A stretch of 64,000 nucleotides of DNA from Variovorax sp. PBL-E5 (lineage in GTDB: Bacteria; Pseudomonadota; Gammaproteobacteria; Burkholderiales; Burkholderiaceae_C). Made by a program: the position numbers and the translations under genes. The notes below the pieces were generated by a model. That model was not told the origin of the DNA, searched no databases, and saw only the letters and a program-made list of their open reading frames with translations. Positions 56,796-60,197 of the stretch are shown piece after piece. Location: assembly GCF_901827185.1 (NCBI RefSeq), contig NZ_LR594671.1, positions 868,001 through 932,000 on the forward strand, given 5' to 3'. The first letter of the stretch is position 1; every line of letters begins with the position of its first letter.

Positions 56796-58256
56796 ATGAT
56801 CAGTCGCGAACCCACCATCGAGCGCCTCGCCACGGCGCAACAACTCCTGCTCACGCCCTTCGGTCTCGACGAGTCGCATCTGTCGCGCGCACTCGCCGAA
56901 ATCACGGCGCACAAGGTCGACGATGCCGACCTCTACTTCCAGTACACCCGCAGCGAGGGCTGGAGCCTGGAGGAGGGCATCGTCAAGACCGGCAGCTTCA
57001 GCATCGACCAGGGCGTGGGCGTGCGCGCAGTGAGCGGCGAGAAGACGGCGTTCGCCTATTCGGACGACATCTCCGAAGCCTCGCTGCTCGATGCGGCGCG
57101 CACGGTCCGTGCCATTTCGTCCGCGGGCCGTACGGCCCGCGTGAAGACGCCGGCGCGCAGGATAGCGAGCAGCCGTTCGCTCTACGACGGCATCGATCCG
57201 ATCTCCACGCTCGACAGCACGGCCAAGGTCGAGCTGCTCGGAAAGGTCGAAAAGCTGGCCCGCTCGCGCGATCCGCGCGTGGCGCAGGTGATGGCCGGCC
57301 TCGCGAGCGAATACGACGTGGTGCTGGTCGCGCGCGCCGACGGCACGCTGGCCGCCGACGTGCGGCCCCTTGTGCGGCTCTCGGTCACGGTGATCGCCGA
57401 GCAGAACGGCCGCCGCGAAATGGGTTCGGGCGGCGGCGGCGGCCGCTTCGGCCTGGCCTATTTCGACGACGCGCACATCGCGGAGTATGTGGATCAGGCG
57501 GTCAAGTCGGCATTGACCAACCTCGATTCGCGGCCCGCGCCGGCCGGCGAGATGACGGTGGTGCTCGGCCCGGGCTGGCCCGGCATCCTGCTGCACGAGG
57601 CCATCGGCCATGGCCTGGAAGGCGACTTCAACCGCAAGGGTTCGAGTGCGTTCTCGGGCCGCATCGGGCAACGCGTCGCGGCCAAGGGCGTGACGGTATT
57701 GGACGACGGCACGATCGCCGATCGCCGCGGTTCACTCAACGTCGACGACGAAGGCAACGCGACGCAACGCAACGTGCTGATCGAGGACGGCATCCTGAAG
57801 GGCTACATCCAGGACTCGCTCAATGCACGGCTGATGAAGTCCAAGCCGACCGGCAACGGCCGGCGCGAGAGCTATGCGCACGTGCCAATGCCGCGCATGA
57901 CCAACACCTACATGCTGGGCGGCGACCGGGTGCCGGCGGAAATCGTGGCCAGCATCAAGAAGGGCCTCTATGCCACCAATTTCGGCGGCGGCCAGGTCGA
58001 CATCACGAGCGGCAAGTTCGTGTTCTCGGCCAGCGAAGCCTACTGGGTCGAGAACGGGAAGATCCAATATCCGGTCAAGGGCGCGACCCTGGTCGGCAAC
58101 GGTCCGGATGCGCTGACCCGCGTCACGATGATCGGCAACGACATGGCGCTCGATTCGGGCGTCGGCACCTGCGGCAAGGAAGGCCAGAGCGTGCCGGTCG
58201 GTGTCGGCCAGCCGACGCTGCGAATCGACGGATTGACCGTAGGCGGCACGGCTTGA
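56796..58256 (+). CDS. tldD: Metalloprotease TldD
   Basis: 486 residues. TldD/PmbA family: DDADLYFQYTRSEGWSLEEGIVKTGSF, the metal motif HEAIGHGLEGD (HExxxH), STRNV-type FNRKGSSAFSG, IEDGILKGYIQDSLNARLM and PVKGATLVGNGPDAL. With TldE (PmbA) it removes leader parts from modified peptides and toxins such as CcdA. The partner gene is not in view. Ends 17 bases before the attenuator leader of the next gene. Confidence 0.95.
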   Translation: MISREPTIERLATAQQLLLTPFGLDESHLSRALAEITAHKVDDADLYFQYTRSEGWSLEEGIVKTGSFSIDQGVGVRAVSGEKTAFAYSDDISEASLLDAARTVRAISSAGRTARVKTPARRIASSRSLYDGIDPISTLDSTAKVELLGKVEKLARSRDPRVAQVMAGLASEYDVVLVARADGTLAADVRPLVRLSVTVIAEQNGRREMGSGGGGGRFGLAYFDDAHIAEYVDQAVKSALTNLDSRPAPAGEMTVVLGPGWPGILLHEAIGHGLEGDFNRKGSSAFSGRIGQRVAAKGVTVLDDGTIADRRGSLNVDDEGNATQRNVLIEDGILKGYIQDSLNARLMKSKPTGNGRRESYAHVPMPRMTNTYMLGGDRVPAEIVASIKKGLYATNFGGGQVDITSGKFVFSASEAYWVENGKIQYPVKGATLVGNGPDALTRVTMIGNDMALDSGVGTCGKEGQSVPVGVGQPTLRIDGLTVGGTA

Positions 58257-58259
58257 GGC

Positions 58260-58265
58260 TATACT
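58260..58265 (+). promoter_or_regulatory. -10 TATACT of the aro attenuator transcript
   Basis: TATACT lies 8 bases before the leader-peptide ATG (58274). RNA would start at about 58272, so the leader message seems leaderless. TTGACC at 58233-58238 is a possible -35, but 21 bases is a long spacer. Confidence 0.45.
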
Positions 58266-58273
58266 CCGCACCC

Positions 58274-58348
58274 ATGTCCGCTCTTCGCGCTTATTTCTTT
58301 GCCTACTTTTGGTTCCCGGTTTCCGGCGGACGAGAGGCGCGTGCGTAG
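58274..58348 (+). CDS. Attenuator leader peptide, 24 residues, aromatic-rich
   Basis: ATG 58274 to TAG 58348, 24 codons. Codons 7-14 read Tyr-Phe-Phe-Ala-Tyr-Phe-Trp-Phe, so seven of eight are aromatic and all three aromatic amino acids occur. Such runs are the hallmark of leader peptides in pheA and trp attenuators. Ribosome stalling there for lack of charged tRNA would cover RNA region 1 (GTCCGC, 58276-58281) and leave region 2 (CCGGCGG, 58323-58329) free to pair with region 3 of the terminator. The peptide itself has no expected function. Confidence 0.8.
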   Translation: MSALRAYFFAYFWFPVSGGREARA

Positions 58349-58376
58349 AGCAAGCAGACAGCAGAACCCCTCTCAG

Positions 58377-58410
58377 AACCGCCGGTGCCAAAAGCCCGGC
58401 GGTTTTTCTT
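58377..58410 (+). terminator. Attenuator terminator upstream of the DAHP synthase gene
   Basis: AACCGCCGG (58377-58385), a ten-base loop, CCGGCGGTT (58396-58404), then T-rich sequence (five Ts at 58403-58407). This is a strong intrinsic terminator placed before the coding region. Its left arm is exactly complementary to CCGGCGG at 58323-58329, giving the alternative antiterminator. Confidence 0.85.
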
Positions 58411-58454
58411 TGGCCGAACGAATTTCAAGACCCCCCGAAAGAAGGAACGACAGC

Positions 58455-59579
58455 ATGAGCACGAAAGCCGCCCCGTCCAGCGACGCCTGGTACGCGAACG
58501 TCGAGAAAACCAGCCAGACCGACGACGAACGCATCAAGGACATCACCGTGCTGCCTCCTCCTGAACACCTGATCCGCTTCTTCCCGATCCGTGGGACGGG
58601 CATCGAATCCCTGATCAGCGGCACGCGCCGTGCCATCCACAACATCATGGCCGGCAAGGATGACCGGCTGCTGGTGATCATGGGGCCATGCTCGATCCAC
58701 GACCCCGCCGCTGCGCTCGAGTACGCCCGGCGCCTGAAGGCGGAACGCCAGAAGTACGCAGACACGCTCGAGATCGTGATGCGCGTGTACTTCGAGAAGC
58801 CGCGCACCACCGTGGGCTGGAAGGGGCTCATCAACGATCCGTACCTCGACCAGACCTTCCGGATCGACGAGGGCCTGCGGATCGCGCGCCAGTTGCTGAT
58901 CGACATCAATCGCCTGGGGCTGCCGGCCGGCAGCGAGTTCCTCGACGTGATCTCGCCCCAATACATCGGCGACCTGATCGCCTGGGGCGCGATCGGTGCG
59001 CGCACGACCGAGAGCCAGGTGCACCGCGAGCTGGCCTCGGGGCTGTCGGCGCCGATCGGCTTCAAGAACGGCACCGACGGCAACATCCGTATCGCGACCG
59101 ACGCGATCCAGGCCGCGGCGCGCGGCCATCATTTTCTTTCCGTCCACAAGAACGGCCAGGTCGCGATCGTGCAGACCAACGGCAACAAGGACTGCCATGT
59201 GATCCTGCGCGGCGGCAAGGCGCCCAACTACGACGCGCAGAGCGTAGCGGCGGCCTGCAAGGATCTCGAGGCCGCCAAGCTGCCCGCCACGCTGATGGTC
59301 GATTGCAGCCATGCCAACAGCAGCAAGCAGCATCAGAAGCAGGTCGACGTCGCGAAGGACATTGCGGCCCAGGTCGCGGGTGGCAGCCGGAGCGTGTTCG
59401 GCTTGATGGTCGAGAGCCATCTGCATGCCGGCGCGCAGAAGTTCACGCCGGGCAAGGACCGGGTCGACAGCCTCGAATACGGCAAGAGCATCACCGACGC
59501 CTGCCTGGGCTGGGACGATTCGGTGCAGGTGCTGGAAGCGCTGTCGCAGGCCGTCAAGCAGCGGCGCGGGTCGCTGTGA
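58455..59579 (+). CDS. aroG: 3-deoxy-7-phosphoheptulonate synthase (AroG type, class I)
   Basis: 374 residues. First enzyme of the shikimate pathway: condenses PEP and erythrose-4-phosphate. MGPCSIHDPAAALEYARRLK, YFEKPRTTVGWKGLINDP, GSEFLDVISPQYIGDLIAWGAIGARTTESQ (metal and PEP site), GFKNGTDGN, DCSHANSSKQH and MVESHLHAGAQ are all present. Ribosome site GAAGGAACG. Transcription must pass the leader attenuator, so expression should rise when charged Phe, Tyr or Trp tRNA is scarce. Which aromatic amino acid inhibits the enzyme cannot be told with certainty. Confidence 0.96.
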   Translation: MSTKAAPSSDAWYANVEKTSQTDDERIKDITVLPPPEHLIRFFPIRGTGIESLISGTRRAIHNIMAGKDDRLLVIMGPCSIHDPAAALEYARRLKAERQKYADTLEIVMRVYFEKPRTTVGWKGLINDPYLDQTFRIDEGLRIARQLLIDINRLGLPAGSEFLDVISPQYIGDLIAWGAIGARTTESQVHRELASGLSAPIGFKNGTDGNIRIATDAIQAAARGHHFLSVHKNGQVAIVQTNGNKDCHVILRGGKAPNYDAQSVAAACKDLEAAKLPATLMVDCSHANSSKQHQKQVDVAKDIAAQVAGGSRSVFGLMVESHLHAGAQKFTPGKDRVDSLEYGKSITDACLGWDDSVQVLEALSQAVKQRRGSL

Positions 59580-59690
59580 GCCCCCGGCTTTTCACTTCAC
59601 TTCGCTTCGCTGCTTGTAATTCGCCACCCCCGAGGGGGTGGCTCGGCCGCCTTGGGGCGGCCCGGCGGCGGCCGACTCGCGGCGCTTGAA
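59580..59690 (+). repeat. Dispersed intergenic repeat, copy F (diverged)
   Basis: Forward copy: GCCCCCGGCTTTTCACTTC, a CACCCCCGAGGGGGTGGC core, then GCCGCCTTGGGGCGGCCCGG. Less like the others but keeps the C-run, CACTTC and central palindrome in order. Lies between the convergent aroG and cupin genes and may serve as a two-way terminator. Confidence 0.55.
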
Positions 59691-59696
59691 TTTCAG

Positions 59697-60197
59697 TCAG
59701 ATCAGCGCGGCCAAGTCCGGCCAGTGATGGCGCAGCAAGGCCGCTTCGTCGCTGTCCGGGCGCATGAATGAAAAGTCGGTGAAGTCGAAGCCTGGCCCCA
59801 CGGTGCAACCGACCAGCGTGTAGTCGTCAGAGGGCTTCGTCGCGATGGGCCGGGCCGCTTGCCATTGGCCGGCCGGTACGGTGTGCTGAGGCCGTGTGCC
59901 ATGAACGTCGACCGGGCCGAGCCGCACATGGGCTGGTGCCGTGCGAAGCGCCGCGTCGCAGGTCCAGAGTGCCAGCGGCACGCCTTCCAGATGAATCCAC
60001 ACTTCGTCGGATCGCACGGTGTGCCAGCGGGAGTGCTGGTGGGCTTCGAGCAGGAAGTAGATGGTCGTGAGCGCCTGGCGCGCGGGGCGGCCGTCGGCGG
60101 GCACGACCTGGGCCGTCGAGCGGAACACCTCGCGAAACCAGCCGCCCTCGGGATGGGGCTGCAACTGGAGGGTCTCGATGAGCTGCCGGGCGCGCAT
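59697..60197 (-). CDS. Cupin (DUF985) family protein
   Basis: 166 residues, single cupin barrel. RQLIETLQLQPHPEGGWFREVFRS, TIYFLLEAHQHSRWHTVRSDEVWIHLEG, HTVPAGQWQAARP and LVGCTVGPGFDFTDFSFM match the DUF985/YML079w-like family, which has no settled function. ATG 60197 begins 5 bases beyond the mpl stop on the same strand, so it follows mpl. Confidence 0.85.
   Translation of the reverse strand: MRARQLIETLQLQPHPEGGWFREVFRSTAQVVPADGRPARQALTTIYFLLEAHQHSRWHTVRSDEVWIHLEGVPLALWTCDAALRTAPAHVRLGPVDVHGTRPQHTVPAGQWQAARPIATKPSDDYTLVGCTVGPGFDFTDFSFMRPDSDEAALLRHHWPDLAALI

Follow-up and report, generated by a model that had tools for sequence, protein, structure and literature searches.

A predicted transcription attenuator with phenylalanine, tyrosine and tryptophan codons upstream of aroG in Variovorax and its relatives

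The trpL and pheL leaders of Escherichia coli read mainly one amino acid, control terminal branches of their pathway, and are preceded by a Shine-Dalgarno sequence. The ilvGMEDA and thrABC leaders combine several amino acids in a single leader, for the branched-chain or the threonine/isoleucine pathways. The earlier note on the DNA studied here, made from its letters, had held that known attenuators read mainly one amino acid; given leaders of the ilvGMEDA type and the Phe-Tyr-Phe leader of Corynebacterium glutamicum, this was too strong. That C. glutamicum leader, aroR-aroF, is described as responding to phenylalanine and not to tyrosine (Neshat et al., 2014; PMC11802643, PMC4046766). The DAHP synthases of E. 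coli are described in a review as being under TyrR and TrpR. The earlier note named no described attenuator of this kind for aroG in Betaproteobacteria, and we recognised none in the literature searched, which comprised open-licence papers.

The window is a 64,000-nt stretch of the Variovorax sp. PBL-E5 genome (NZ_LR594671.1, positions 868,001 to 932,000). The 198-base spacer between tldD and aroG in this window very probably holds a ribosome-mediated transcription attenuator that would read the supply of charged Phe, Tyr and Trp tRNAs. Its features, in window coordinates, are:

56796..58256, + strand: tldD, the upstream gene (PRK10735, 656 bits)
58260..58265, + strand: putative -10 box TATACT, 8 nt 5′ of the leader ATG
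58274..58348, + strand: leader peptide ORF of 24 codons, MSALRAYFFAYFWFPVSGGREARA
58292..58315, + strand: putative regulatory codons 7-14, TAT TTC TTT GCC TAC TTT TGG TTC (Y F F A Y F W F)
58312..58319, + strand: region 1, predicted left arm of the protector (GTTCCCGG), overlapping the last aromatic codons; from covariation and folding
58323..58337, + strand: region 2, CCGGCGG (58323-58329) and GAGAGG (58332-58337), partner of region 1 or region 3
58369..58385, + strand: region 3, CCTCTC (58369-58374) and CCGCCGG (58379-58385), partner of region 2 (antiterminator) or region 4 (terminator)
58396..58411, + strand: region 4, CCGGCGG (58396-58402) and a T-rich tract from 58403, right arm of the terminator
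58442..58446, + strand: Shine-Dalgarno-like AAGGA of aroG, by eye
58455..59579, + strand: aroG, the proposed regulated gene, DAHP synthase of the AroF/G/H type (TIGR00034, 537 bits against a cut-off of 173)

The putative -10 box begins 3 bases after the tldD stop codon, and the predicted terminated leader RNA is about 135-138 nt long. The leader ORF and each of its codons 7-14 (Tyr-Phe-Phe-Ala-Tyr-Phe-Trp-Phe), which the earlier note had read from the letters, are indeed there, at the coordinates it gave. GC-rich inverted repeats 3′ of aroG, at 59613-59670 (CCACCCCCGAGGGGGTGG, GGCCGCC-TTGG-GGCGGCC), resemble a terminator or a dispersed repeat on visual inspection.

An AroG match was found in 149 of 150 genomes searched from the window's family, and upstream sequence was read for all of these but 6 with low-scoring matches only. 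An aromatic-run leader precedes aroG in 141 of the 143 genomes read; in the remaining two the contig ends 91-95 nt 5′ of aroG. All 80 titled relatives (Variovorax, Polaromonas, Acidovorax, Curvibacter, Rhodoferax, Ramlibacter, Xenophilus, Hydrogenophaga and others) have an aromatic leader. Across the relatives and the family-wide draw the leader is an ATG-started aromatic-run ORF lying 115-253 nt 5′ of aroG. The ORF richest in aromatics was taken at each locus, and 210 loci gave 204 distinct leaders after identical sequences were dropped. The window leader has 7 aromatic residues in a stretch of 8; at least 5 occur in 203 of the 204 distinct leaders and 4 in the remaining one, and among 11 further leaders one has 4. 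The same scoring was applied to ATG-started ORFs of 8-60 codons in 2362 control windows, each of 450 nt and taken from both strands of loci L004-L113: 38 windows reached 4 of 8 and none reached 5, on which ground a chance ORF was rejected. Read by eye, the peptides typically run M, a few residues, FYFAYFWFS or a close variant, 2-4 residues and GG(R/G)E; five leader peptides gave no match to a known NCBIfam or Pfam family. At this locus a short leader ORF carries a run of codons for the amino acids in which the regulated pathway ends. The comparison that the earlier note had set beforehand, namely whether relatives retain the aromatic run and pairings 2:3 and 3:4, has come out in favour of a ribosome-mediated attenuator of the DAHP synthase gene, among close and more distant relatives alike.

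Phe, Tyr and Trp interchange along the run, whose most constant stretch is Tyr-Phe-Trp-Phe. Phe occurs in all 204 leaders, Tyr in 201 and Trp in 195, with all three together in 192; the codon totals are 886 Phe, 337 Tyr and 204 Trp. Exactly one Trp codon is present in 186 leaders, and Trp stands at the codon before the last aromatic in 163 (run positions were counted from the last aromatic codon, which is hence aromatic by construction). From the fixed Trp and Tyr codons and the spacing we lean towards a sensor of all three amino acids. Phe is written as TTT in 569 of 886 leader codons, against 104 of the 883 Phe codons of aroG itself, and Tyr as TAT in 113 of 337 against 147 of 887, the aroG counts coming from the 104 leader loci that hold the gene. 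The TTT preference possibly stems from selection for regulatory codons that are slow or unstructured. The choice of regulatory codon is reported to matter for attenuator sensitivity (PMC1183508), and TTT may tune sensitivity here.

The best -10 hexamer lies 7-8 nt 5′ of the leader ATG in 172 of 204 leaders and is TACATT in 143; GTGCTACATT stands just upstream of the leader in 120. C predominates among the three bases before the ATG (148, 140 and 113 of 204 at -1, -2 and -3). From the spacing of the -10 hexamer and these C-rich bases, the A of the ATG would thus be the first likely initiating purine. There appears to be no room for a Shine-Dalgarno sequence before the leader ATG, and the leader is probably leaderless, translated from the 5′ end of its transcript. 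Seven leaders have no good -10 hexamer, and in three of them (L071, L088, L172) the motif precedes a slightly more upstream ATG. The TATACT of the window is the counterpart of the GTGCTACATT common in relatives, but without the TG of an extended -10, because of which a strict promoter-leader pattern had no match in the window's own genome. A promoter scan of the window gave no -35/-10 pair; the window's promoter has no recognised -35 and departs from the consensus of its relatives. Leaderless transcripts are described in this group of bacteria: for Burkholderia cenocepacia, 72 genes are listed whose start site coincides with the start codon and 42 whose start site lies no more than 10 nt away, 24 of the combined set being tRNAs (PMC4603805), and in Cupriavidus metallidurans leaderless starts are given as 4.67% of primary starts (PMC7563307). 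Supplement tables such as that of 82 short 5′UTRs in B. cenocepacia (PMC5688073) may already hold the aroG leader RNA.

An intrinsic terminator lies between the leader ORF and aroG, as the earlier note had said; its arms are found at 58379-58385 and 58396-58402, and its T tract begins at 58403. It is predicted at -21.4 kcal/mol (z -3.64, none of 200 shuffles as stable); a simple terminator scan missed it because the scan took loops of 3-8 and the loop here is 10. A terminator with at least 5 G-C pairs is found in 204 of 204 leaders, in none of 204 shuffled downstream stretches, and in none of 1164 control windows. The antiterminator that had been proposed, CCGGCGG at 58323-58329, is present as the complement of the left arm of the terminator, but the pairing now predicted is longer, GAGAGG (58332-58337) joining with CCTCTC (58369-58374).

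Covariation was measured in 50 of the 204 leaders (greedy choice below 0.80 similarity, alignment A1) against 500 shuffles. The 3:4 helix is paired in 94.7% of cells (0/500 shuffles) with 2 pairs changed on both sides (3/500); its covariation score was reached by 19/500 shuffles and its number of pair types by 493/500. The 2:3 helix is paired in 85.5% of cells as aligned in these 50 sequences, several of which stand one base off register in region 2, lowering the 2:3 figures; with region 2 anchored by similarity to CCGGCGG the value over all 204 leaders is 93.7% (1338/1428 cells). Three 2:3 pairs changed on both sides (13/500 shuffles), with the covariation score reached by 4/500 and the pair types by 267/500, and a control slid by +2 had 5 cells changed on both sides against 4 for the true register. 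The shuffle support for 2:3 and 3:4 is weaker because their columns hardly vary. The 2:3 duplexes come to -21.5 kcal/mol, against -14.1 with region 2 shuffled and -20.2 with species swapped; none of 2000 species permutations was as good, a result that relatedness inflates. The compensatory changes that the earlier note wished to see do occur, for example CCGACGG with CCGTCGG in 7 of 204 leaders and one near-variant; CTGGCGG with CCGCCAG is seen outside the window's family. Three diverged leaders, those of L224 and L226 (family f13) and L221 (f11), read HWFFFGFFLPLAEG and FFFFFYYFPCLLADG; they have CTGGCGG, CCGCCAG and CTGGCGG in regions 2, 3 and 4, all three changed together.

The third pairing is a conserved 1:2 helix, TTCTC:GAGAG, that starts in the last aromatic codon. 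Pairs form in 92.0% of its cells, 4 of its 5 pairs have changed on both sides, and none of 500 shuffles equalled it on any of five measures. The arm reads TTCCC in the window, where the predicted hairpin pairs 58312-58319 with 58323-58331 within a longer fold. The protector proposed earlier was a different one, GTCCGC (58276-58281) with GCGGAC (58326-58331). Its letters are in place but form a local variant, found in 26 of 204 leaders; 6-nt complements linking the ORF's first 18 nt to the region-2 zone occur in 37 of 204 true pairs against 30 of 204 mismatched species pairs, so that it does not hold as a conserved protector. The consensus fold of the leader before region 3 consists of the 1:2 helix and one neighbouring pair only. 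An outer GCGCG:CGCGC helix seen in single folds went unsupported by that consensus and was rejected.

Stall-constrained folding, also proposed in the earlier note, was run in two ways. At equilibrium, the full leader RNA goes into the terminator wherever the ribosome is stalled (mean P 0.91-0.99), so that antitermination must rest on the order of folding, which is also the accepted view of the switch in trp attenuation. Folding before region 4 is made was therefore used, with RNA up to the terminator loop and the leading edge of the ribosome set 13 nt beyond the A-site codon, and here the outcome does depend on the stall. The probability that region 3 is paired upstream is 0.92-0.96 with the A site on the seven codons before the last aromatic, 0.74 on the last aromatic codon itself, then 0.44 and 0.22 one and two codons further on. 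Put through the same model, the trp leader of E. coli gives a curve of similar shape: 0.62 for each of the two Trp codons and the codon after them, followed by 0.39 and 0.03. With the ribosome at the stop codon the mean over aroG leaders is 0.16, and below 0.2 in 139 of 204. Setting the ribosome edge at 10, 13 or 16 nt (51 of 204 leaders) shifts the drop by one codon per step.

Neither the antiterminator nor the nascent form of the window is unusually stable. The antiterminator form (58274-58392) shows no gain over its shuffles (z 0.23; 112 of 200 match its stability), the nascent leader (58274-58376) is barely more stable than they are (z -0.55), and the stalled form (58310-58392) has z -1.34. 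The probability that region 2 pairs with the upstream ORF averages 0.51 over the 204 leaders, against 0.56 with the upstream part shuffled, and is the higher of the two in 63 of them, which lends the protector no support. Once region 3 has been transcribed, P(2:3) in naked RNA is 0.40 on average over the leaders and 0.95 in the window, and because of the latter value the protector is perhaps weak there. Taken together, sequence, covariation and predicted folding describe an antiterminator that is predicted to exclude the terminator and to be freed by a stall in the run.

Sequence and comparison show the ORF with its codons, the three pairings with their covariation, and the spacing; from these we infer translation, stalling, termination in vivo and the sensing of three amino acids, which would work as follows. 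Transcription would start at the leader ATG or within about 2 nt of it, and the ribosome would begin at the 5′ end without a Shine-Dalgarno sequence. When charged aromatic tRNAs are plentiful, the ribosome would pass the aromatic codons and cover region 2, or the 1:2 hairpin would re-form. In either case 3:4 would pair, transcription would stop after about 135 nt, and little aroG would be made. When any one of the three amino acids is short, the ribosome would stall inside the aromatic run with region 2 open ahead of it; 2:3 would then form before region 4 is made, and the polymerase would read into aroG.

One rival leaves the attenuator in place and changes what it senses. In practice it might be a phenylalanine sensor, the Tyr and Trp codons being passengers or spacing tuners, as in C. 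glutamicum aroR. Phe codons do dominate (886, against 337 Tyr and 204 Trp), 9 of 204 leaders have no Trp, and a review describes tyrosine supply as without effect on the F-Y-F leader of aroR. Yet Trp holds a fixed position in 163 of 204 leaders and occurs exactly once in 186, though other codons would keep the RNA length just as well, and a stall at the place of the Trp codon is predicted to leave region 3 paired upstream with P 0.92. We consider the phenylalanine sensor unlikely, if far from fanciful. A role in trans, as a terminated sRNA or as a peptide with its own job, in addition to control of aroG or as the main function, has the precedent of rnTrpL/peTrpL in Sinorhizobium and seems improbable here. 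In its favour, the peptide often keeps its C-terminal part (GGREASA, SHRTGGGEANA), and the predicted start of the RNA at the ATG is like that of rnTrpL; against it, regions 1 and 2 account for most of the C-terminal codons, and in 31 of 204 leaders GGCGG is followed 1 nt later by the stop codon.

To two further readings we give very little credence. The hairpin lies about 120 bases 3′ of the tldD stop codon and might be only a terminator or insulator of tldD, with the ORF a chance frame. This is contradicted by the aromatic ORF kept in 204 distinct leaders when none of 2362 controls reached 5 of 8, by a -10 box between tldD and the ORF, and by the covariation of region 2, within the ORF, with region 3; it was rejected. 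A leader with a terminator before a biosynthetic gene could also be a riboswitch, a T-box or a protein-bound leader. T-box, trp and phe leaders are among the families of Rfam, but Rfam release 15 gave no family at gathering score in 57000-60000 (three matches, E 0.93-7.6), so that a known Rfam leader was rejected, and the consensus fold before region 3 shows just the 1:2 helix and a single pair next to it.

Outside the family but within the order, 60 of 80 genomes had a match, and among the 28 best-scoring loci 10, from 7 families, have an ATG-started aromatic leader and 18 have none; a TTG-started ORF with 5 of 8 aromatic at L242 was left out of the count. By eye, the ORF of each of those 10 has a GGCG core and its hairpin opens with ACCGCC; in 2 of them the stretch read ends before the T run. 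Outside the order (70 of 94 genomes with a match), one of the 29 best-scoring loci has a possible, different leader. This locus, L275 of genome G251, has an ORF with FYRWYYF 5′ of a DAHP synthase gene and is possibly an independent attenuator. Paralogous DAHP synthase genes had the leader at none of the 7 loci read, including the second AroG-type DAHP synthase of the window's own genome (56% identity, on another contig, G000:C3:113072-114124, L002). Genome G140 has a tandem aroG pair (L255, L256) with an aromatic leader before the first copy only.

No TrpR was found in the 21 genomes searched, E. coli and Bacillus subtilis being matched among 14 controls. The TyrR-type helix-turn-helix (PF18024) gave none in the window's own genome; across the 21 genomes it had matches at E 0.001 in 10 and over the cut-off in 2. 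This is compatible with a role of the attenuator in place of repressors. A scan of the own genome's trpE and pheA loci, made with provisional strand and gene starts, gave no clear leader. We hold it an even call whether, in many Burkholderiales, a single leaderless Phe+Tyr+Trp attenuator acts as an OR gate on entry to the shikimate pathway and does the job of TyrR and TrpR in E. coli, with transcription and translation starting at the same nucleotide and ribosome and polymerase coupled from the first base. If true, this would explain control of the first aromatic step in a large bacterial family where no TrpR was found, through one conserved, easily tested RNA element that is a natural three-input attenuator. 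The leaderless start would be a test case for tighter coupling of transcription and translation, and the element would be a direct means of lifting control over the making of aromatics in Variovorax and similar hosts.

The aroG leader would share with E. coli trpL and pheL the four-region logic of stalled ribosome, antiterminator, terminator and protector. Several described or predicted elements resemble it in part. The Sinorhizobium meliloti trpL/rnTrpL RNA starts with the leader ATG, and for its operon no repression of transcription is reported; it is a Trp leader of trpE(G) in an alphaproteobacterium, with a known 5′ end where that of the window is predicted (PMC7298713). The uORFC-13-1 motif of Acholeplasma is likewise a putative uORF attenuator before a DAHP synthase gene (aroF), and differs in its phylum, its 24 representatives, its Phe codon(s) only, its RBS and another base-paired substructure (PMC8632094). 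The aroF and aroH RNA motifs of Shewanella are predicted control RNAs before DAHP synthase genes of Gammaproteobacteria, presented as a Tyr-tRNA-sensing attenuator or possible termination, with no three-amino-acid leader mentioned in the account cited (PMC2659441). C. glutamicum aroR-aroF, likened here by description rather than sequence, has an aromatic-codon leader peptide before a DAHP synthase gene and transcription attenuation; unlike the window it belongs to an actinobacterium, and Phe-Tyr-Phe is all that is described for its run. The mechanism is thus a known one with a precedent in Corynebacterium, and the aroG element is a widespread and apparently undescribed instance of it with an unusual set of inputs.
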